Virus record (IMG/VR): IMGVR_UViG_3300010042_000006 | Location: 1-41,214 of that record | From: a virus | Length of the DNA stretch: 41,214 nucleotides | Direction: 5' to 3' (one strand) | Shown here: one piece after another, positions 21,433 to 41,214 of the stretch | Numbering within the stretch: the stretch's first letter is position 1 | Layout of the letters: the number at the start of each line of letters is the position of its first letter | The notes under the pieces: generated by a model | What the model saw: the letters and a program-made list of their open reading frames with translations, nothing else | What the model was told of the DNA's origin: nothing | Databases searched by the model: none | Position numbers and translations under genes: made by a program

Positions 21433-21903
21433 CTACTTCTTCTCCCCCTTGTGGTCCTTGTCGTCCTGCCCGCCGTCGGCCGGCACCACCTCGTTCTGGC
21501 GCGCCTGCTCGGCGGCCGCGGCCACGTCGGCGTTCACGACGTGCGAGCCGGCCGCGCGGCGCATGTCCTGCTCGCGCAGGGCGCGGGTGGCGGGGTTCTC
21601 CTCGAGGGCGCCCTGGCGGGCCAGCGTCGCGGTGGTGTTCGCAGCCTCGACGTTCACCTCGACGGGCTTGCCGTCGGCGTCCAGCACCGCGGTCGTGTCG
21701 CCCTGGTCCTCGCGCTTGGTGGTGTAGGGCGGGCCGCTGGGGTCGCCCTTGCTGTCGTCGGCGTTCTCCTGGCCCTGCTTCACGCGGCGGCCCTCGGCTT
21801 CCTTCTCGGCGCGCTCGCGGTCCTGCTTGGCGTCCTCTGCCGACAGCTTCTTCAGCTGGTCGTAGTTCGCCTGCTGCGCCTGGGTCTTCGTTTCCTTGGT
21901 CAT
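21433..21903 (-). CDS. Hydrophilic uncharacterised protein between terS and terL
   Basis: The 156-residue product starts at 21903, where ATG overlaps the terS stop as ATGA. The composition is very polar (many Lys, Glu, Asp, Gln) with a charged helical N-terminal half and a lysine-rich end (GGQDDKDHKGEKK). There are no cysteines and no hydrophobic core, so it is probably mostly disordered or coiled coil. I do not recognise a family. Coupling to terS and the following terminator suggest that the two are one transcription unit. Confidence 0.65.
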   Translation of the reverse strand: MTKETKTQAQQANYDQLKKLSAEDAKQDRERAEKEAEGRRVKQGQENADDSKGDPSGPPYTTKREDQGDTTAVLDADGKPVEVNVEAANTTATLARQGALEENPATRALREQDMRRAAGSHVVNADVAAAAEQARQNEVVPADGGQDDKDHKGEKK

Positions 21904-22445
21904 TTCAGTTCCTTCGGTTGCACGTCGATGATCTCCGCACGGGCGCTGGCGCGCTCGCGTGCAGCCTCCATGGCCCCCACCATGTCGATGGTGACGGTCT
22001 GGTCGATCTGCTTGACCTCGCCGAAGCGCTTCCTGTCGAGCACGCCCAGGTACCACTTGCGCGTGTTGATGCGCAGCGTGGATCGTTGAACGTCTTCGAG
22101 GGCGTCGCTGGCGTCGGCGATGTCCAGCATCTGGGTCGAGATGAGCTCAGCGGCGATGCGCTGCGCGTCGTAGTACAGCTCCTTGCGCCTGTCGTCCTTG
22201 AGCACCCAGGCGAGGAAACGAGCGTAGTCCAGGTTCCGCGGGTCGTCCCCGAGCAGCGACTTCAGCGGCTGGCCGCACGCCAGCTGCGTGATGATGTGGT
22301 CGAACTTGGCCTCGAACACCGTGACCTCGTTCTCGCGCCGGAGGGCCTTGAGGGCTGACGGTGGCGCGTTGGGGTCGATCATCCACGCCGGCAGGGGCAG
22401 CGGCTGCTGCTCGGGGGCGGGCGTGACGATGTGGAGGTGGTCCAT
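21900..22445 (-). CDS. terS: Terminase small subunit (Sf6-type)
   Basis: The 181-residue protein resembles the small terminase family: an N-terminal helix-turn-helix region at about residues 45 to 105 (FDHIITQLACGQPLKSLLGDDP), ISTQMLDIADASDALEDVQ, then RINTRKWYLGVLDRKRFGEVK, the conserved arginine-tryptophan stretch before the C-terminus. It recognises the packaging site on phage DNA and loads TerL. The ATG has no good ribosome-binding site and lies just after a possible TAAACT box. An unusual structured element lies some 60 bp upstream. Confidence 0.8.
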   Translation of the reverse strand: MDHLHIVTPAPEQQPLPLPAWMIDPNAPPSALKALRRENEVTVFEAKFDHIITQLACGQPLKSLLGDDPRNLDYARFLAWVLKDDRRKELYYDAQRIAAELISTQMLDIADASDALEDVQRSTLRINTRKWYLGVLDRKRFGEVKQIDQTVTIDMVGAMEAARERASARAEIIDVQPKELK

Positions 22446-22778: not shown

Positions 22779-23042
22779 GACGATCCTCGGTTGAAAAGGA
22801 AACAGGGTATCACAGCTTCTCGCTTTCATGTGTTGCCCAATGGGTTCTTAGTTACATGATCCAATGGGTTTTCAGTTTCGTTGGAGCGCTGAGTCGGTTG
22901 AGTACCTCCTTGACCAGCACGGCGCGGCGGCGTGGGGGCTCCCCCCGGCACCTGGCCGCACTCAACCCACTGGCCCTATCTAGCATGTGGCCAGGCCAGT
23001 GGGTCACTGTGCCAATGGGGCAAGGGCTCGCGCCCCGCTGGG
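22779..23042. promoter_or_regulatory. Non-coding control region with ACCCANTGGGT palindromes and inverted repeat
   Basis: No gene is evident here. The region contains five matches to the 11-bp palindrome ACCCANTGGGT: 22835, 22859, 22965, 22994 and 23010 (first base of each). The third and fourth form an 11-bp inverted repeat (ACCCACTGGCC and GGCCAGTGGGT) around 18 bases. G-runs around 22934 to 22948 and 23017 to 23038 can form further hairpins. It must contain the promoter for the gene at 22587 to 22778, but I cannot fix its boxes. Confidence 0.65.
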
Positions 23043-23168
23043 TCAGCCCTTCAGCTTCTCGATCACATCGGCCAAGCTGACCCGCTTACCCGTTGGGATC
23101 ATCGAGAACTTGCGGCCCTCATTGATCGCGTTGCGTGCTTCTTTGTGCCATGTTTGATATGCGGTCAT
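23043..23168 (-). CDS. 41-residue small protein in the control region
   Basis: The ATG at 23168 is preceded by GGAG at ten bases, and the reading is MTAYQTWHKEARNAINEGRK then FSMIPTGKRVSLADVIEKLKG. The charged, helical composition is that of a real small protein and not of random sequence. It is flanked on both sides by palindromic operator-like sites, and one more (23088) lies inside the gene. I do not recognise it. A regulator or an anti-host factor made early is possible, but there is no motif to show it. Confidence 0.6.
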   Translation of the reverse strand: MTAYQTWHKEARNAINEGRKFSMIPTGKRVSLADVIEKLKG

Positions 23169-23282
23169 GTTTAGCTCCAGTGGGTCAGTTGTTGCGGTGA
23201 CCCATTGTACTGCACGTTTGACCCATTGGACTACCGTTTGTCGGAAACTTTGACCCGGTGGGCCATCACGCACGCACTCACG

Positions 23283-23413
23283 CACTTGATCACGCACGCA
23301 CGGTGCATCTTTCCATATGCGATCAAGAGGGGTTGTAGAAATACGATGTTGTGCGTGATTTCCAAAACCAACTATCCCCGATCCTGTACAGCGAGTGCGT
23401 GCGTGATCAAGTG
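23283..23413. repeat. 19-bp perfect inverted repeat with TGATCA core and TGCG repeats
   Basis: CACTTGATCACGCACGCAC at 23283 to 23301 is exactly complementary to 23395 to 23413. On both sides there are further (TGCG)/(CGCA) runs, and shorter partial copies (GATCAA, TGCGTGAT) lie in the A+T-richer 93-bp spacer. The arrangement resembles an origin of replication or a site for a dimeric DNA-binding protein. Confidence 0.75.
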
Positions 23414-23425
23414 AGTGCGTGAGAG

Positions 23426-23454
23426 TTGACAAACCCATTGAACCATTGAACAAT
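23426..23454 (+). promoter_or_regulatory. Rightward promoter with operator in the spacer
   Basis: TTGACA (23426 to 23431) is followed after 17 bp by AACAAT (23449 to 23454, four of six consensus positions). The spacer carries ACCCATTGAAC (23433 to 23443), a copy of the palindrome family. Transcription would start about 20 bases before the ATG at 23482. A protein bound to the palindrome would block the polymerase. Confidence 0.7.
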
Positions 23455-23481
23455 CCAGCCACCGCAACACAGGAGCACCCA

Positions 23482-24240
23482 ATGCAATTCGATGTCTACG
23501 AACCAGGTGACAGCACCTATTCGTTTCAACACAGAGTCGAAGCACTGACCGCGCAAGCGGCCATCGTCGAATCAGCCAGCCGCACCAACAGCAGCACCAT
23601 CAACTGGGTCGCTGTTCCTGCTGGCGATCCCGAGCCCGTCATGCACGCGTCCAGCAGCCCCACCATCGAGCGTCACGATGTCTACCAGGGTGATGCCTAC
23701 CTTGGCACATTTGAAGCCGCCAGCGAAGCGCAGGCCGTCGCCGCATGCGCTACCGCGCGCCAGCTCGACCCTGGTGCGCTGCATGTCTACAAGTCCGCGA
23801 TGTTTGGTTCTGCTGCGCCAGCAGCACCCGCGCGCGCCAGCAGCCCGGAGCGCGAGCGCATGACCCTGGCCCTGATGACCACCGGTCGAGCGTTCCTCAC
23901 TCGTGCCTACATCGACGCACAGCTCGACGATGAGGTGCAGGCGCTGTACAACCACCACTGCGCGCCGCCTGAGCCCGTCACGCGCCCTGTCGACATCGCA
24001 CAGGCCATGAAGACCCGCGCGAGCATGAAGCGCATCCACCAGCCCGCGCTGGAGCCTGCAGGTGCGGTGCACATGCGCCAGCGCCGCTCGACGGCGCGCA
24101 GCTACCGCGCGTTCCTGTGGGACAGCAACCTTGGCCGCAGCGTGCACCTTGGCACGTTCTCTACGCTGGAGGAGAAGCAGCAGGCCGAGGAGGCCGCGCG
24201 CCAGCGCCGCGCCATGGGCCTGCCCGTTCGCATGGACTGA
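23482..24240 (+). CDS. Uncharacterised protein with possible AP2-like C-terminal domain
   Basis: The start MQFDVYEPGD has AGGAG at a proper distance; an earlier ATG at 23419 would lie upstream of the promoter. The 252-residue product contains VYQGDAYLGTFEAASEAQAV near residues 70 to 90. At its C-terminus (about 212 to 250) it has RSYRAFLWDSNLGRSVHLGTF followed by EEKQQAEEAARQRRA. This last part resembles AP2-type DNA-binding domains of phage proteins, with strands ending in LGTF and then a helix. The middle is alanine- and proline-rich. As first gene of the rightward operon it may act early, for instance on DNA. This is inference. Confidence 0.7.
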   Translation: MQFDVYEPGDSTYSFQHRVEALTAQAAIVESASRTNSSTINWVAVPAGDPEPVMHASSSPTIERHDVYQGDAYLGTFEAASEAQAVAACATARQLDPGALHVYKSAMFGSAAPAAPARASSPERERMTLALMTTGRAFLTRAYIDAQLDDEVQALYNHHCAPPEPVTRPVDIAQAMKTRASMKRIHQPALEPAGAVHMRQRRSTARSYRAFLWDSNLGRSVHLGTFSTLEEKQQAEEAARQRRAMGLPVRMD

Positions 24241-24244
24241 CGCC

Positions 24245-24460
24245 ATGGCACTTCTACCCTCGCGCGCGCCGATCTGGCGTTACCCCACGTCACGCGCGCC
24301 ACTGCCGCCCGTGCCCAGGCCACTGCTGTACAGGAGCGATGGGCAATGGTTCTGCTCCAGTCTCAGGCCGTATCGGGTGACGGGGAGAGGCGAGACACCG
24401 CAGCGCGCCTACGCCGCCTGGCTCGAAACCTGGCTGATTCCCCGCCGAGTAACCTTCTAA
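24245..24460 (+). CDS. Small phage protein with W-C…TPxxAYxxW motif
   Basis: The 71-residue product contains LYRSDGQWFCSS and later GRGETPQRAYAAWLETW. I know this WxC and TPxxAYxxW combination from many short phage proteins without known function. It begins five bases after the previous stop and has no clear Shine-Dalgarno sequence, so translation probably depends on coupling. Its stop lies exactly on the operator in front of the next promoter. Confidence 0.6.
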   Translation: MALLPSRAPIWRYPTSRAPLPPVPRPLLYRSDGQWFCSSLRPYRVTGRGETPQRAYAAWLETWLIPRRVTF

Positions 24461-24513
24461 CCCACTGGGTCATTGAAGATAGTCCTTGCATGTCTCACCC
24501 AATGGGTTATACT
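24460..24513 (+). promoter_or_regulatory. Rightward promoter with two perfect ACCCANTGGGT operators
   Basis: TTGCAT (24486 to 24491) and TATACT (24508 to 24513) are separated by 16 bp and precede the gene at 24544. The spacer contains ACCCAATGGGT (24497 to 24507), and ACCCACTGGGT lies upstream (24460 to 24470), 37 bp away. Both are perfect palindromes around the variable centre base. They are the best copies in the genome and sit where a repressor would act, the second fully between the promoter boxes. Confidence 0.75.
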
Positions 24514-24543
24514 TCATTCACCGCAACACACCAGGAGCTAGAC

Positions 24544-24744
24544 ATGGCCCAACAACCGAAGATGAACCAGCGCCAAGTGCGGGCCGCTTTCCGCCGCGCA
24601 TGGATTCGCCGCTGCTGTGAGGTGCCCGCATACCGCACCGACGAGCCGGCGCGCCGCCAGTTCTTCTCGATCTTCATCGACGAGCTGTGGATGGATGACC
24701 GCATCACCGAGAACATGCTGAACAACGTCACGATCAACGGCTGA
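24544..24744 (+). CDS. Small uncharacterised early protein
   Basis: The 66-residue protein (MAQQPKMNQRQVRAAFRRAW…) is basic in its first half and acidic in its second, with two adjacent cysteines and a WMDD motif. The Shine-Dalgarno sequence AGGAGC is seven bases before the ATG. A 21-base stretch covering this signal and the first codons recurs exactly in front of the next gene. It is the first gene behind the operator-controlled promoter. No family recognised. Confidence 0.65.
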   Translation: MAQQPKMNQRQVRAAFRRAWIRRCCEVPAYRTDEPARRQFFSIFIDELWMDDRITENMLNNVTING

Positions 24745-24754
24745 TCACCAACCC

Positions 24755-24770
24755 GGCCGCGCAAGCGGCC
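24755..24770 (+). other. GNRA-loop RNA hairpin between two genes
   Basis: GGCCGC and GCGGCC form a perfect six-pair stem closed by the tetraloop GCAA. There is no U tract, so it is not an intrinsic terminator. It stands six bases before the Shine-Dalgarno sequence of the next gene and may protect or expose the start site, or stop exonucleases. Confidence 0.5.
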
Positions 24771-24787
24771 ACCCCTAGGAGCTAGAC

Positions 24788-25108
24788 ATGGCCCAACGCA
24801 TCACCGACACCGACCTGCGCATCCTCTGCGAGCGCCTGAACAAGCTGACCGGCTCACCCATGGAGCCCTATGCACCGTGGGTCGAAGGTCAGCCCAACAG
24901 GGGCCGCGCACAGGTCGGCAACTTCCACATCAGCCACTCCTACGGTGGCGTGTGCCTGCACCGCATGAGCAACACGAGCGGTGGCGTCAGCACGCCCATC
25001 GGCGGCGGGCATGTCCCCAAACGCGAGCTGTGGGACCGCATGCATGCGTTCATCGACGGGATCGAGTTCACACAGCGCCAGGCTGCGGCCGACGCGAAGG
25101 GAGAATGA
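24788..25108 (+). CDS. Uncharacterised phage protein
   Basis: The 106-residue protein has the pattern VGNFHISHSYGGVCLHRMSN, a glycine- and serine-rich loop, GGGHVPKRELWDRMHAFIDG and a charged end. I know this combination from many uncharacterised phage proteins of 90 to 110 residues. The leader is identical to that of the gene at 24544. It lies in a compact operon; the next gene starts two bases after its stop. No enzymatic motif is visible. Confidence 0.7.
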   Translation: MAQRITDTDLRILCERLNKLTGSPMEPYAPWVEGQPNRGRAQVGNFHISHSYGGVCLHRMSNTSGGVSTPIGGGHVPKRELWDRMHAFIDGIEFTQRQAAADAKGE

Positions 25109-25110
25109 CC

Positions 25111-25344
25111 ATGCAAGCCATCACAGTCAAGTACATCGGCCCGACCGACATGCGCGGCTCGCGCCTCAAGGCCACCGCCGAAGCCGGCTCAATCACTGTC
25201 GACATCGACCACGGCATGCCGCAGGATCTGCGCCACAGCGACGCAGCCATGCGCCTGTGCGCCAAGCTCGGATGGTCCGGCGAGCTGGTGCAGGGTACGC
25301 TGTCCGACGGTCGCACGAGCGTGTTCGTCTTCACCGGGAAGTAA
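25111..25344 (+). CDS. Uncharacterised small phage protein
   Basis: I chose ATG at 25111, because GGAG lies seven bases upstream; an ATG at 25105 is too close to it. The 77-residue product (MQAITVKYIGPTDMRGSRLK…) has a strand-rich first part, a KLGWSGELVQGTL segment and a final FVFTGK strand. It belongs to a common type of small phage protein with no known role. Confidence 0.7.
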   Translation: MQAITVKYIGPTDMRGSRLKATAEAGSITVDIDHGMPQDLRHSDAAMRLCAKLGWSGELVQGTLSDGRTSVFVFTGK

Positions 25345-25346
25345 CC

Positions 25347-25577
25347 ATGCAAGTCACCGCCCTGAACATCGCACAGTCGCAGTACGTGCAGATCGAAGAC
25401 CACGACGAGCAGCGCGGCTACTACATGTCAGTGCGCCTCGATGCCGGCGAAGACATCATGCGCGGCCTGCGGCGCAACGCGGAGGAGATCCGCACGCGCT
25501 GCCTGCGCGAGATCAAGCGCATGGAGCGCATCGAGCTGGCAATCAACCACCTGAAGGAGCAACGCAATGCCAACTGA
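25347..25577 (+). CDS. Uncharacterised small helical protein
   Basis: The 76-residue product starts two bases after the previous stop, with GGGAAG as weak ribosome-binding site. The second half is a charged helix (IRTRCLREIKRMERIELAIN) that could be a coiled coil. I do not recognise it. The stop lies inside the next gene, so the two are translationally coupled by overlap. Confidence 0.65.
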   Translation: MQVTALNIAQSQYVQIEDHDEQRGYYMSVRLDAGEDIMRGLRRNAEEIRTRCLREIKRMERIELAINHLKEQRNAN

Positions 25578-25722
25578 ATACATGGTCTACGCCCTCATCT
25601 ACGTGCTGGCTATCGTCGTGGCCGCGTGGATCTGGTCCTGCGGCGTCGAAGATTCGCTGCAGGAATTCCCCGAGCCTGACGATGCGCAGCCGTCCGGGTT
25701 CGACTCCAACCTGCCGCGCTGA
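25567..25722 (+). CDS. 51-residue single-pass membrane protein
   Basis: A short reading frame with AAGGAGC nine bases before its ATG, overlapping the previous gene by 11 bp. The product has one transmembrane helix at about residues 6 to 25 (MVYALIYVLAIVVAAWIWSC) and a short acidic, proline-containing tail. Small membrane proteins of this kind are frequent in early phage operons; some interfere with host envelope or exclude other phages. No specific function can be assigned. Confidence 0.6.
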   Translation: MPTEYMVYALIYVLAIVVAAWIWSCGVEDSLQEFPEPDDAQPSGFDSNLPR

Positions 25723-25730
25723 GGATCACC

Positions 25731-25997
25731 ATGCCCATGCTCCAAGACATGACCGATGCCGAGATGGTGGAGTGCGCACGCCGCACGTCGCCCGGCTCGA
25801 TGTACCGCACGATGGCCGAACGCATCGAGCAGCGCAGCGCGGACTGCCTGGCGCTGATCAACACGCTGACGAAGGTGCTGAACTCCTACGGCTCCGATGA
25901 ACAGAAAGCGTTCGGGGCAGCGGTGGTGGCCACCCGCCTGCTCGAACGGCTGGAGGAGTCCGGCACGATGGCGATGCTCAAGAAGGCAGGGCGGTGA
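25731..25997 (+). CDS. Uncharacterised helical protein
   Basis: The 88-residue protein starts MPMLQDMTDAEMVECARRTS, with GAGG upstream; a second ATG two codons later is possible. It is nearly all helical and has a mixed charge. No motif recognised. Its stop overlaps the start of the following membrane protein gene by one base (TGATG). Confidence 0.6.
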   Translation: MPMLQDMTDAEMVECARRTSPGSMYRTMAERIEQRSADCLALINTLTKVLNSYGSDEQKAFGAAVVATRLLERLEESGTMAMLKKAGR

Positions 25998-26155
25998 TGA
26001 CAACGATTTATTGCCAGATTCTCGGCACTGTCGCAGGGTGGTGCATCGGCATGCTCATGCTCCCCATCGTTCGCGAGATGGGCTGGCGCTGGATCGCTCC
26101 GCTGTGCACCATCGCTACAGCGTGCATCGGTGGCGTTGTGGTGCTGGCGTCATGA
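25997..26155 (+). CDS. 52-residue two-helix membrane protein
   Basis: The reading frame begins at the ATG of TGATG at the previous stop. The product has two hydrophobic segments, about residues 5 to 23 and 32 to 51, separated by a short loop VREMGWRW. No ribosome-binding site other than coupling is seen. It is the second small membrane protein in this operon. Function unknown. Confidence 0.55.
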   Translation: MTTIYCQILGTVAGWCIGMLMLPIVREMGWRWIAPLCTIATACIGGVVVLAS

Positions 26156-26361
26156 GCCAGCGTGACAAGCGCGGCCGCCTGGTCTGCCACTGCGGCGGCT
26201 ACCATTTCTTGCATCGCAAGGGCGGTGGCGCCTGCGAGCACAGCAGTCGCGCCCACTACTACGCAGCCACGCGCGCCGGCCTGCCGCTGGCCGAGCGCAT
26301 GGAGTTCCTTTCAGCCGCGGACCTGCGGCGCATGTTCCCCTTGGAGATCGATCCATCATGA
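26152..26361 (+). CDS. Small zinc-ribbon-like phage protein
   Basis: The 69-residue product has Cys12, Cys14, His18, His21, Cys28 and His30 within VCHCGGYHFLHRKGGGACEH, which can bind zinc. The HRKGGG turn followed by CEH is typical of a common small phage protein family with unknown role. It overlaps both neighbours by ATGA. A nucleic-acid-binding role is possible. Confidence 0.65.
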   Translation: MSQRDKRGRLVCHCGGYHFLHRKGGGACEHSSRAHYYAATRAGLPLAERMEFLSAADLRRMFPLEIDPS

Positions 26362-26738
26362 GTAAGCTCGCACAAGCCCTGCGCCACCACGACACCGGAA
26401 AACGGTACATGCGATTGGAGCCGTTTCGTTTCGCGGAAGCCTTCTCCGAGCACAAGCGAGAACCGACGATCTACGCGAGAGAAGACAACGAATATCTGAT
26501 CGAAGCTCGTTTCGTAACGAGATTCAAGTACAGATCCGATGAACAACCTGCATCGGAAGTAGTTTGGCGATCAAAGCGCATGATCACCGAAGAGATCTTC
26601 GGCGAGTATCGCCAGCCGTTGCTCGTAGCTGCTCACCTGCTTGATCAGCGCGAGTATGAAAAAGCACAACGGATCATCCTTGACGTTCTGGCCAATTTCC
26701 ACGAACCTGAACCCATGGGGAAAATCAATGACCAATGA
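26358..26738 (+). CDS. Uncharacterised protein with unusual base composition
   Basis: The 126-residue protein is charged and mixed alpha/beta (MSKLAQALRHHDTGKRYMRL…). The gene has visibly lower G+C content and other codon choices than its neighbours (for instance CGA, AGA, GAA, TCC), which suggests more recent acquisition. It is coupled by ATGA to the gene before and overlaps the start of the XRE-type regulator behind. I do not recognise a family. Confidence 0.65.
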   Translation: MSKLAQALRHHDTGKRYMRLEPFRFAEAFSEHKREPTIYAREDNEYLIEARFVTRFKYRSDEQPASEVVWRSKRMITEEIFGEYRQPLLVAAHLLDQREYEKAQRIILDVLANFHEPEPMGKINDQ

Positions 26739-27105
26739 CCAATTGAAAGCCTGGCGCGCGCGCCTGTCGCTCGGCGAGGCCGGCATGGCCGCCTATCTCG
26801 GCACTCCGGTGACCACCTACCGCAAGTGGGAGAACGGCACGCGCCAGCCCGACAGCAGCACGCGCCGCCTGTTCGACGTGCTGCAGCTGGTCGAAACGCG
26901 CATGCCTGACATGCACGCCGAGCTGGTGGCGGCAGCGGTGGCCATGGGCGGGCCGGAGAAGGTCCGCAAGCCGCGCAAGGCGAAGGCTGCACCGGAACCT
27001 CTGTGCGAGGATCAAGGCTGCCCGCACTCTGCGGTTCAGCACGTCTGCATCTCCGCGCAGCCTGCCGCGGCTGCGCTGCCGGCTTGGATGACCGGAGGCG
27101 TGTGA
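26728..27105 (+). CDS. XRE-type helix-turn-helix regulator
   Basis: The 125-residue protein has an N-terminal Cro/CI-like helix-turn-helix at about residues 5 to 55, with MAAYLGTPVTTYRKWENGTR as the recognition part, which is the usual YxxWExGxRxP signature. A basic linker (RKPRKAKA), a CxxxxCPH stretch and the tail PAWMTGGV follow. GGGGA is upstream of ATG 26728. It is the natural candidate to bind the palindromes in the control regions, but no direct evidence links them. The tail motif PAWM recurs in the DUF2800 protein and TerS. Confidence 0.8.
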   Translation: MTNDQLKAWRARLSLGEAGMAAYLGTPVTTYRKWENGTRQPDSSTRRLFDVLQLVETRMPDMHAELVAAAVAMGGPEKVRKPRKAKAAPEPLCEDQGCPHSAVQHVCISAQPAAAALPAWMTGGV

Positions 27106-27287
27106 TGCGTCGGCGCTGGTGCTATGACCTACTATCCGTGTCGCTCTGTTCACCATCGCGTCACATCAGTACTGAGAAATTCCGCTGGCGCTGGACGGCT
27201 CGGGTTTCGCATTTCCTCTGGTCCTGCGCGCCTCAGTACGGCTACCCGTTCATCGTGACGGGGGAGATTTACGAAGCCTACGTGTAG
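27105..27287 (+). CDS. Small basic protein at operon end
   Basis: The 60-residue product begins at an ATG overlapping the preceding stop by one base, with GGAGG ten bases upstream. It is rich in Arg, Trp, Tyr and Cys (MRRRWCYDLLSVSLCSPSRH…). A strong terminator follows 18 bp after its stop, which supports that the operon really ends here. No family recognised; the composition is odd enough that I keep confidence moderate. Confidence 0.5.
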   Translation: MRRRWCYDLLSVSLCSPSRHISTEKFRWRWTARVSHFLWSCAPQYGYPFIVTGEIYEAYV

Positions 27288-27305
27288 CACCCCTTAAAAG
27301 AACTT

Positions 27306-27341
27306 CGCCCCGGAGGAACAAGTTTCCCGCCGGGGCGTTTT
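27306..27341 (+). terminator. Rho-independent terminator between convergent operons
   Basis: CGCCCCGG and CCGGGGCG form an eight-pair G+C stem around 16 bases, followed by TTTT on the plus strand. On the minus strand the same stem is followed after a few bases by CTTTT. So it probably ends the rightward early operon and, less well, the leftward primase operon. Confidence 0.85.
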
Positions 27342-27384
27342 CACGTCTGGAGCATCCCCCACCCTGCCGCGGGGAATGAAATTC

Positions 27385-27783
27385 TCAGCCGGCCATTACG
27401 GCTACCATCGATCCGAACACGCTGTTCACGAACGGGGTCTTGCGGCGCTGCACCTTCTTCTTCGCGTAGATCAGCGCTCGGTTCTTCTCGAAGTACCGGT
27501 ACTGCGTCTGCTGGCGCGCTTTGGCGCCCAGCACAGGCTTGCGCACGTCCTCGCCTGGCCCGAGGCCATAGACCCGCGCCTCGCGGCCGCTGTTGCCCTG
27601 CTGGCGCTGGTAGCCGGTGACGCGGAAGTAGCGCGTGCCGTGGGTCTTGCGCGCACGCCACATGGACTCGTTGACCTTGCTCATGTCGCGCTGCAGCCAC
27701 TCGGCCAGCTCGCGCACGGTCAGCGGACCGTGCTCCTTGATGGCGGTGATCATCCGCTCGCGCATCTCTGCTGCCATTGTCAT
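27385..27783 (-). CDS. Winged-helix DNA-binding protein
   Basis: The 132-residue protein has an N-terminal winged-helix pattern: MRERMITAIKEHGPLTVREL, a recognition helix DMSKVNESMWRAR, and a wing HGTRYFRVTGYQRQQG. The C-terminal half is basic. The ATG overlaps the primase-helicase stop as ATGA, so both are made from one message. Proteins of this type beside replicative primases may help open an origin or regulate the operon. This is inference from context. Confidence 0.7.
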   Translation of the reverse strand: MTMAAEMRERMITAIKEHGPLTVRELAEWLQRDMSKVNESMWRARKTHGTRYFRVTGYQRQQGNSGREARVYGLGPGEDVRKPVLGAKARQQTQYRYFEKNRALIYAKKKVQRRKTPFVNSVFGSMVAVMAG

Positions 27784-30284
27784 CCGTTGGTCCCTGTCAA
27801 GAGTTCATGTCCGTGCACGTTGAACGGCACGGCCGCGTTGCGCGACACGTAGTCCATCATGCGCTGCTTCGCTGCGATCACCTCCAGCCGGTGCTCGGCG
27901 AACTGCTGGCGGATCGACGGGTTGATTGCCCACTCGGCGTGCCCCCTGTGCTCGGCGGTGCTGTCGTCCATGCGCGCCACCCAGCTCAGGCTCTGCACGC
28001 GCCACATGGCCCCGAGGATCGCCGATGTGGCCTGCGCTGGCCCCATGCCCTCTAGCTGCCGGCGCGCGCTTTGCTTGATCTCTGACATGGTGATCTTGTC
28101 GCGGTCGGCGTACTGGATGATGAAGTCAGCCATCCACTGGTCCAGCGAGTTCGCGCCCACCATCTCTCCGTTGTAGATGTGCCGCATCGATGGGATCAGG
28201 TAGCTCGTAGCCATGTCGATGGCCCGGCGCGCCGTCTCCTCGGACACGTTGATCTGGAACGGCTCCAGCATCATGTGCATCAGCAGCACCAGGCGGCCCA
28301 CCAGACCCTCGATCTTGCCGAACGCCTGCATGTAGATCGCGCTGGGCTTCATCAAGCGTTCATCGCTCAGGCGCTGGTGATACCACTTCTGGAATTCGAC
28401 GTACAGCGCCTCCGCGCCTGGGCTCATGTTGTAGGTCATGGCCGGCAGGCCGTACACGCTGCGCACCATCATGTCGAACGCGGCCTTGGACACCATGCGC
28501 TCGCGCGACGGCGAGCCCAGGCGCGTCATCTCGCCGCGCAACTGGATCGGAATGAAGCGCTGCAGCAGGCCGTCCTCTGACAGCTTGCCGACGTGCTCTG
28601 CGAACACGCGCGGCTGAATGTTGCCGTACATGCTCACGGCGAAGTTGTCGGCCTCGATCTCGCCTGCCCCCACGCGGTCCATCTTGTGATAGGAGGACTC
28701 GAACGCCGTCGTCCATGTCGACTTGTGCTCGCCGCTGCGCGGGTCGGACAGCTTGGCGGCCCAGCTGTTCATCTCGTCGAGGTAACACAGCACGCCGCGC
28801 GGCGCGTCGGCGCAGATGCGCACCAGCTTCTGGCTCGTCACGTCCTGCACCACCAGGCGCAACGGCACGGGGATCTTGGGGGCTTCGCCGTAGCCGGGCG
28901 GCAGCTCGCCGGCCAGCAGCGTCTCGGTGTCCTTGGCAGCGTCGAGATACGCCTTCTTCGCCGCCTCGTGGCGGGCCTCGAGCGCCTCGTAGACCTGCAT
29001 GGCCTGCTGGTAGCGTACCCGGTCCTCGCGCTCGATCTCCTGCAGCACCTCGAACATGGGCTTGGACCCCGGGGACTTCTTGTCGGCGGGGTCGCCGATG
29101 GTCATGGCCCACAGTACCGGGGGCACCTTGAACCCTGGGCGCAGCTCCAGCCGCGTGCGTGCGTCAGCGGCCCCGGAGATGGCCGCCAGGCCCGCGAACA
29201 GTGGGACCAAAGGGTCACACCCCACAGACGCGCCGATGTCCTGCGCAGCCTGCGCCAGCACCGGCGGCATCAGGGAGAAGTCGAGTTGCGGCGGTGGCGG
29301 GTTCAGGCTGGCCGTGAGCACCCGAGGCTGTACCGGCGCCACGTTGGCGAACAGCGCCGCCGCGTCCGGTGTCGGCTTGCGCCAGCCGGCCAGCCCGGCC
29401 AGGTGGTAGAGCGTGCCCAGGCTGACCCGGTTCGCCTTGTTCACGCTGAAGCTGCGCCATTGGGTTTCCATCTCCCGCGGGCCAGGGTACTTCGCTTTGC
29501 TGCGCTGGCTCCAGGTGTGCCATACGTGCGCCGCGTGCGCCTCCTGGCCCAGCTCGACGCCGGCAGCGTGCAGCGCCATGCCGACCTGCACCCACTCCTC
29601 GCGCGAGCAGTCCGGGCTGATGGCGTTGACCGCTGCATCGATCTCCTGCCAGTCGGCGCTCAGTGGGCCAGTCGGCGCGGCCGGCCGCTCGTTGGCCCGC
29701 GCCATCTCGCGCACCCACAGCGCCAGCAGCGTCTCGGGGATCTGCGGCAGGCGGGTCCAGTGTCCACCGCCGGCCCACTGGTACGGCCTGCCGGTCAGCG
29801 GGTGGATCGATGGCGGCAGCACGTCCTGCACCGTCTTCCCGTTGGCCGTGCCACAGCGGAAATCCAGGTAGTTGTACCGCTCCCTCTCACCGTGCTCGTC
29901 CAGCCGGTCATCCATCCACTTGTAGCTCGGCAGTGCCAGCCCGAACGGCATGCGATAGATCAGCTTGCCGTGCCCCTGCCGGCCTGAGTCGATCACCACC
30001 GCGTCAGGTGCGTCGAACAGGCTCTGCAGGTTGATGCCGTTGATCGCCAGCTCGGCAGCTGCGCGGTCCCATGCGTCCACGTCGATGGCCATGGTGCCGC
30101 TGTAGGCGTGGGCCAGGCCGATGTTCCAGCCGGGCGGAAGCAGGGTGTGGTCGGGCAGCAAGCTGCCCCGCTCGTTCCACCCGTGGTGCGCTGGTCCCTT
30201 CGAGAAGGGTGGGATGGCCACGAGTTGCATCCCGTGTCGGAGATAGGCGTCAACCGATGCGGGGTGCTGGGTCACGATTGTCAT
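27780..30284 (-). CDS. Primase-helicase (Prim-Pol, PriCT and DUF3987 domains)
   Basis: The 834-residue protein has an N-terminal primase-polymerase domain at about 10 to 190: GWNIGLA at 52 to 58, the metal-binding AIDVDAWD with Asp68 and Asp70, and SGRQGHGKLIY with His105. A PriCT_2-like domain follows at about 210 to 300 (AISPDCSREEWVQVGMALHA, WSQRSKAKYPG). The rest is a DUF3987-type helicase region with a nucleotide-binding loop GDPADKKSPGSK at 397 to 408. It should make primers and unwind DNA at the fork. It is read opposite to the polymerase cassette. AGGA stands nine bases before the ATG. Confidence 0.85.
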   Translation of the reverse strand: MTIVTQHPASVDAYLRHGMQLVAIPPFSKGPAHHGWNERGSLLPDHTLLPPGWNIGLAHAYSGTMAIDVDAWDRAAAELAINGINLQSLFDAPDAVVIDSGRQGHGKLIYRMPFGLALPSYKWMDDRLDEHGERERYNYLDFRCGTANGKTVQDVLPPSIHPLTGRPYQWAGGGHWTRLPQIPETLLALWVREMARANERPAAPTGPLSADWQEIDAAVNAISPDCSREEWVQVGMALHAAGVELGQEAHAAHVWHTWSQRSKAKYPGPREMETQWRSFSVNKANRVSLGTLYHLAGLAGWRKPTPDAAALFANVAPVQPRVLTASLNPPPPQLDFSLMPPVLAQAAQDIGASVGCDPLVPLFAGLAAISGAADARTRLELRPGFKVPPVLWAMTIGDPADKKSPGSKPMFEVLQEIEREDRVRYQQAMQVYEALEARHEAAKKAYLDAAKDTETLLAGELPPGYGEAPKIPVPLRLVVQDVTSQKLVRICADAPRGVLCYLDEMNSWAAKLSDPRSGEHKSTWTTAFESSYHKMDRVGAGEIEADNFAVSMYGNIQPRVFAEHVGKLSEDGLLQRFIPIQLRGEMTRLGSPSRERMVSKAAFDMMVRSVYGLPAMTYNMSPGAEALYVEFQKWYHQRLSDERLMKPSAIYMQAFGKIEGLVGRLVLLMHMMLEPFQINVSEETARRAIDMATSYLIPSMRHIYNGEMVGANSLDQWMADFIIQYADRDKITMSEIKQSARRQLEGMGPAQATSAILGAMWRVQSLSWVARMDDSTAEHRGHAEWAINPSIRQQFAEHRLEVIAAKQRMMDYVSRNAAVPFNVHGHELLTGTNG

Positions 30285-30626: not shown

Positions 30627-30794
30627 ATGTCCACTACCCCGGCGAAGAAGGCGAAAGCCCCGCCTCGCCTCAAGATGCTCGGCGTGCGCGTCAATGACGC
30701 GGAGCACAAGAAGTTCACCAAGATCGCCAAGCCGCAAGGCGGTGCAGCCGCCGTGCTGCGTCAGTTCGTCACCACCACCATCGCAACCAAGTGA
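30627..30794 (+). CDS. Ribbon-helix-helix-like small DNA-binding protein
   Basis: The 55-residue protein has a basic N-terminus (MSTTPAKKAKAPPRLKM), a strand LGVRVN, a helix DAEHKKFTKIAKPQ and a second helix AAAVLRQFVTTT. This order, strand then two helices, is that of ribbon-helix-helix repressors such as Arc. AGGAG precedes the ATG by nine bases. Its place next to the GTTAAAC motifs makes it the first candidate for their regulator, by analogy with autoregulated repressors. Direct proof is lacking. Confidence 0.65.
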   Translation: MSTTPAKKAKAPPRLKMLGVRVNDAEHKKFTKIAKPQGGAAAVLRQFVTTTIATK

Positions 30795-40967: not shown

Positions 40968-41200
40968 CCCAGGCCCTCCGCGCCGTCCCCGTCGACATCG
41001 AGCAGGGTGTACAGCGCCCAGCAGAAGATGTTCAATCCCATCGCCGACCAGTAGGTCAGCCACACGGTCCAGTGCAGCGGCGACATGTCATCGATCTTCC
41101 ACGCGAGCATGCCGACCAGCACGTAGACCAGCACGGCCCGCGCGAGCGTGACGACGATGCCGACGGCCTGCAGTGGGATGTGGAAGCGCCAGCGGCTCAC
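40964..41200 (-). CDS. Small two-helix membrane protein of the lysis region
   Basis: The 78-residue product starts with GTG at 41200 overlapping the lysozyme-like stop (visible at 106 to 108 in the other terminal copy) and ends overlapping the i-spanin start (GTGA). Hydrophobic segments lie at about 10 to 34 and 43 to 66, the latter ending in an acidic DVDGDG stretch. It is placed between endolysin and spanins, so it could be a further holin-type or antiholin protein. No family recognised. Confidence 0.65.
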   Translation of the reverse strand: MSRWRFHIPLQAVGIVVTLARAVLVYVLVGMLAWKIDDMSPLHWTVWLTYWSAMGLNIFCWALYTLLDVDGDGAEGLG

Positions 41201-41214
41201 AACTGAACCCCGGA
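41092..41214. repeat. Terminal direct repeat, right copy
   Basis: Identical to bases 1 to 123. Joining the two copies restores continuous genes for the lysozyme-like protein and the small membrane protein, which shows that the contig closes into a circle. Confidence 0.95.

Follow-up and report, generated by a model that had tools for sequence, protein, structure and literature searches.

Why do phages in which no lysogeny genes can be recognised retain some ten operators? The control region of IMG/VR virus record IMGVR_UViG_3300010042_000006 raises this question, and with it the questions of whether such an array is real, which protein would bind it and what would be gained by filling it. The window analysed here is the whole 41,214-base stretch of this virus record, which is probably a complete genome because a 123-bp direct repeat stands at both of its ends. 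Its leftward late genes encode the head-tail connector, capsid, tail, terminase and portal proteins, and its rightward early genes encode a DUF2800 nuclease, an ssDNA-binding protein, a DNA polymerase, an SNF2 helicase and a Dam methylase. The palindromes are bounded on one side by the gene of the terminase small subunit (21900-22445) and on the other by the early genes, which run rightward; inside or next to the array are leftward ORFs of 41 and 80 aa, neither of which is assigned to the early or late class. The landmarks that frame the locus are as follows.

1-123 and 41092-41214: direct terminal repeat of 123 bp, at both ends of the window
21900-22445, leftward strand: terminase small subunit, on the leftward side of the array the first late gene to be recognised
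23043-23168, leftward strand: ORF of 41 aa inside the array, with no family match
27306-27341, rightward strand: GC-rich hairpin followed by TTTT, read from the sequence (fold z only -1.67), a possible end of the early operon

An earlier note on this DNA listed 13 palindromic 11-bp sites in the region, and its coordinates are correct, including those of the two sites that it called perfect (24460 and 24497). Measured against ACCCANTGGGT (ACCCA-N-TGGGT), the 13 sites carry no mismatch in two cases, one in two, two in six and three in the remaining three, which are weak (23010, 23200 and 23433). Two further matches with two mismatches, at 23033 and 23599, are absent from that list. The scores below, in bits, come from a matrix built from related phages only.

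22835-22845: operator site on the array's leftward side, one mismatch (GCCCAATGGGT), 15.4 bits
22859-22869: operator site, one mismatch (ATCCAATGGGT), 24 bp from site 22835, 17.8 bits
22965-22975: weak site, two mismatches, inverted pair with 22994, 7.1 bits
22994-23004: weak site, two mismatches, inverted pair with 22965, 8.2 bits
23010-23020: doubtful site, three mismatches, 6.6 bits
23033-23043: additional site, two mismatches, 10.0 bits
23088-23098: site within the 41-aa ORF, two mismatches, 11.6 bits
23175-23185: site just upstream of the start of the 41-aa ORF, two mismatches, 11.5 bits
23200-23210: weak site, three mismatches, over a leftward -10-like TACAAT, 6.0 bits
23221-23231: site with two mismatches, 13.5 bits
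23253-23263: site with two mismatches, 12.4 bits
24460-24470: perfect operator, preceding the one in P2 by 37 bp, 22.6 bits
24497-24507: perfect operator, abutting the P2 -10 box, 21.8 bits

Matches with at most two mismatches number 32 over the whole window against 13.3 ± 3.1 in shuffled sequence, a comparison proposed in the earlier note, and none of 100 shuffles reached 32; 12 of these matches fall within the 1.7-kb control region and 20 within the remaining 39.5 kb. When 5,120 combinations of arm and gap are ranked by their enrichment in 22830-24520, ACCCA with a 1-bp gap comes out on top, with a Poisson p, before correction, of 1.5e-10. Once the choice of pattern is allowed for, the 12 matches in the control region stand against a maximum of 10 for the best of 1024 patterns in 15 Markov shuffles. 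Taken by itself, the window shows a clear cluster, by a margin that is modest and not overwhelming.

The same region contains other repeats. Two 27-nt inverted arms (23275-23301 and 23395-23421), 93% complementary, 93 nt apart and with a single-strand fold z of -5.0, lie in the middle of the array, and the control regions of related loci L116 and L106 also have long inverted arms, whose sequences differ from those of the window. Tandem 8-bp repeats resembling CACGCACG occupy 23267-23301, in the left arm of the inverted repeat; they were considered as a second type of operator and dropped, a lag of 8 being unremarkable beside other lags.

Relatives were collected by their DNA polymerase and terminase, and a locus was counted if it held at least three near-perfect sites within 800 bp. 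The loss of the sites from related phages, which the earlier note had named as grounds for rejecting them, is not what was found: the array is kept in 26 related loci, between the terminase and the early genes, with up to nine perfect copies. Pooled, the relatives' sites show a symmetrical core of 11 bp between weak flanks, T(G/A)ACCCANTGGGT(C/T)A, and the central base is free. A 15-column matrix of 139 distinct sites from the 26 loci, with the window left out, recovers 10 sites of at least 8 bits in 22821-24520, where 0.12 would be expected, and 7 in the rest of the window; stated as a range, the relatives-only matrix places 10-13 sites in the control region against 0.1-0.4 expected. Neighbouring sites in the relatives are mostly at least 16 bp apart, a spacing that would suit dimers bound side by side. 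This conservation, a comparison of sequences that is independent of the window, settles the reality of the array. A second repeated word, similar to TGTGACAATGTGAC, occurs at L116:6805-6922 and also in L099, L094 and L057, in control regions that hold ACCCA sites as well.

The placement of the sites relative to promoters speaks to their function. Two predicted promoters point into the early genes of the window.

23426-23454, rightward strand: early promoter P1, TTGACA-N17-AACAAT (10/12), whose spacer contains weak site 23433-23443
24486-24513, rightward strand: early promoter P2, TTGCAT-N16-TATACT (8/12), with perfect operator 24497 filling the 3′ part of its spacer

The two sites that the earlier note had placed between -35 and -10 boxes are thus where it put them, and so is the site that it had drawn over a possible leftward -10 box (23200, overlapping TACAAT at 23209-23204). 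Across the loci, 19 of 24 promoter-like sites on the early strand overlap an operator, against 7.4 expected from coverage. The common layout, seen in 11 of those, consists of TTGACA, 4-6 bp, the operator and, no more than 1 bp further on, a -10 box; it is present in the nearest named relative, phage DSL-LC05, and in L054, L047, L056, L082, L084 and L085, and P2 of the window shares with the relatives an operator lodged at the -10 end of the spacer. In an alternative layout, TTGACC-CANTGGGT, the operator lies over the -35 box. An operator within a promoter core is an established sign of repression, and repression is argued for here because the operators sit inside such cores. The palindromes here concentrate at promoters and recur in related phages, as would be expected of the operator array of a dimeric phage repressor.

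On the late side, one site lies 24-125 bp from the -10-like GTGATACACT box that precedes the terminase small subunit, at a variable distance. Activation of the late promoter from a fixed distance was considered and rejected, given these varying distances and a weak phase concentration (0.42-0.48). In many loci (for example L163, L281 and L084) a -10 box similar to GTGATACACT stands about 10-15 nt before the start of the terminase small subunit, which suggests that the leader of this gene is very short or absent.

The earlier note had nominated as regulator an XRE-type protein encoded within the early operon, and this nomination has gained support from conservation, co-occurrence and covariation of the recognition helix.

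26728-27105, rightward strand: XRE-family protein of 125 aa, candidate regulator, encoded on the P2 strand 2.2 kb downstream of that promoter, with a recognition helix at residues 28-36 that includes Lys33

Relatives of this protein are encoded in the early operon of array-bearing phages, among them DSL-LC05, where the gene product is annotated as 'repressor protein C'. In records 30 kb long or longer, at least six near-perfect sites accompany the XRE in 21 of 22 cases, and none of the 7 that are XRE-negative has as many as five; in G004 the six near-perfect matches equal the number obtained with a reversed-pattern control, and G022, G041 and G042 possess the XRE gene and few sites or none. 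The XRE-negative records are also more distant kin, and the co-occurrence of array and XRE may be plain shared inheritance within one phage group. The AlphaFold2 model of the window protein (pLDDT about 95 over residues 1-70) predicts with confidence the five-helix HTH domain, recognition helix included, of the XRE/Cro-CI fold, and its nearest Foldseek neighbours are HigA2, Aca2, MqsA, C proteins and repressors of the 434/P22 type; the Pfam HTH_3 match (E 2.2e-4) falls just below the curated cut-off. Profile alignment sets Lys33 opposite an arginine of the MqsA recognition helix, Arg101, which contacts operator DNA (PMC4901048). The gene immediately upstream (26358-26738) has no family match, and a consensus scan of 24400-27500 recognised no separate promoter for the XRE gene.

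The recognition helix also covaries with the operator. Every one of the 37 XRE variants accompanied by at least three ACCCA sites has Lys33. In L216 and L218, position 33 is Ser/Ala and the arrays consist instead of TCACANTGTGA, with TCACA arms, in 7 and 6 copies; when the control region was shuffled (in L062, which is the same contig as L216), no pattern occurred more than 2 times. ACCCA sites are likewise missing where the residue is Gly (L101, which falls inside the branch of the XRE tree to which the window belongs), Ser (L197) or Asn (L102 and L106), and also from L018/L205, which keep Lys33 all the same. The XRE tree calls for three changes of Lys33, at least two of them well supported, which amounts to only 2-3 independent losses; the non-ACCCA genomes are few. 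These patterns suggest at least two operator specificities, with ACCCA and TCACA arms, that change in step with a residue of the XRE helix. Other candidate palindromes were too weak to be retained (TGACA in L018, 4 copies with shuffles at most 3; AGTCA in L101, 3 copies with shuffles at most 2; TCCCA in L102, 3 copies), and the same scan of L106 and L197 found none.

From the computed enrichment, the conservation and position of the array, the overlap with promoter cores, the co-occurrence with XRE and the helix covariation, we infer that the XRE protein binds these sites, that it does so as a dimer, and that the outcome is repression with the purpose of a temporal shut-off. The array is real and conserved, the XRE protein 26728-27105 is the best candidate binder, and a well-supported candidate repressor, for an uncultured group. 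At a probability of roughly 0.68, the array would represent operators of the phage's own XRE repressor, a dimer of which would bind the 11-bp palindromes, block the early promoters and shut off the early operon. In such a scheme, the early promoters would fire and the early operon would be transcribed, XRE gene included; XRE dimers would then occupy palindromes across the array, and RNA polymerase would be blocked at early promoters, where a site within the spacer adjoins the -10 box. The filled array would close P1, P2 and the leftward promoter 23233-23204, so that the early operon, including the XRE gene itself, would be off once enough XRE had accumulated. The many extra sites toward the late genes would probably sharpen the switch and extend control to leftward promoters. 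The earlier proposal of a single regulator for leftward and rightward early transcription survives in part: the sites are consistent with operators of one dimeric phage regulator, but the leftward genes are mainly late ones (terminase, portal, capsid and tail).

The alternative that fares best, though it is unlikely, takes the XRE protein as the immunity repressor of an episomal temperate phage and the array as its immunity region. Immunity systems typically have arrays of many operators whose specificities are heterotypic, as in cluster A mycobacteriophages (PMC6550527), and the annotation of the DSL-LC05 protein points the same way. However, genes for a tyrosine integrase, a serine recombinase (resolvase) or ParA were found neither in the window, as the earlier note had said of integrase, nor in 21 array-bearing relatives; the XRE gene resides inside the very operon that would be silenced, with no separate maintenance promoter recognised; DSL-LC05 is predicted to be virulent (PMC10611076, Table 1); and in one scan by terminase across 84,980 genomes of bacteria and archaea the best match had 51% identity, in a metagenome bin, searches of bacterial genomes and plasmids likewise returning distant matches only. 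Autoregulated early shut-off is favoured over lysogeny because integrase, resolvase and ParA are lacking in these genomes and DSL-LC05 is predicted to be virulent, and the elaborate switch of the earlier note, understood as a lysogenic one, finds no support.

It is improbable that the binder is instead the conserved ribbon-helix-helix (RHH) protein (window about 30629-30794), which the earlier note had listed as a possible binder. This protein is widespread in these phages too (49 matches), but the residues with which it is predicted to contact DNA show no relation to the operator: they vary freely among phages with an identical ACCCA operator, and they are the same in L062, with its TCACA operator, and L098. 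RHH proteins, moreover, usually recognise short tandem repeats. The winged-helix protein, also named at the time, is found in only some relatives. That the palindromes are replication-origin iterons for an initiator such as the primase-polymerase is highly improbable: the non-coding region is long and rich in repeats, with the 27-nt inverted pair at its middle, and in L009:1507-1575 two perfect inverted DnaA boxes flank an operator and an AT-rich stretch, but the control region lacks DnaA boxes in the window and in almost every other relative, the perfect pair is confined to L009, and the sites are fitted to promoter cores. Recruitment of a host regulator has a very small likelihood, since, from one related phage to another, the sequence of the sites shifts together with a phage protein. 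The several poor sites in the window and the 20 matches outside the control region might be cited for chance or base composition, but this reading is ruled out by the shuffles, the relatives-only matrix and the conservation in 26 loci.

With the XRE repressor as the preferred reading, the array and a small early DNA-binding protein would probably constitute an early-gene off-switch for a whole group of apparently lytic phages. A broader picture, put forward tentatively and at rather less than even odds, is that apparently obligately lytic, uncultured tailed phages possess a lysogeny-style array without lysogeny, that the array acts as a cooperative early-to-late switch, and that the specificities of operator and repressor co-diversify. 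The literature search returned no paper joining the word ACCCAATGGGT with 'bacteriophage' and no account of such a switch; the candidate regulator and operator proposed here belong to a large group of uncultured phages, and the literature searched does not describe the control circuit of that group. The ACCCA and TCACA repressor-operator pairs are in addition a natural data set in which joint changes of helix residues and operators can be followed.

Several known systems offer instructive parallels. In DSL-LC05 (OR003940) the array and the early-promoter layout, which there reads TTGACA-atctg-ACCCAGTGGGT-TAGAAT, are the same as here, and its published account makes no mention of promoters, palindromes or a repressor; the two differ in the primase-polymerase and winged-helix genes, which are leftward in the window (27385-30284) and rightward among the early genes of DSL-LC05. 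The antitoxins MqsA and HigA2 and the Aca2 autorepressors, the nearest solved folds, are autoregulatory on palindromes, and MqsA reads ACCT(N)3AGGT via Asn97 and Arg101 (PMC4901048). Their sequence similarity to the window XRE is weak (E about 1e-3), and here the array is far longer, with no toxin partner or anti-CRISPR context identified. The lambdoid Cro/CI and 434/P22 systems share with this locus a small XRE-fold protein, palindromic operators over early -35 and -10 boxes and a Cro-like regulator within its own operon. They have two sets of three operators, whereas about 8-13 sites extend here over 0.5-1.7 kb, with late genes and not a second early operon on the other side of the array, and with no partner repressor gene or integrase found. 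Cluster A mycobacteriophages (L5, Bxb1) also have many operator copies, and their sites and repressors shift together among relatives (PMC6550527). Their stoperators, however, are asymmetric, oriented along transcription and dispersed genome-wide (20-30 copies), in contrast to the palindromic sites clustered here in one control region of phages in which no lysogeny genes were found. In its proposed workings, then, this locus would resemble Cro-type autoregulation, and in the number of its sites and their drifting specificity it resembles the cluster A mycobacteriophages.
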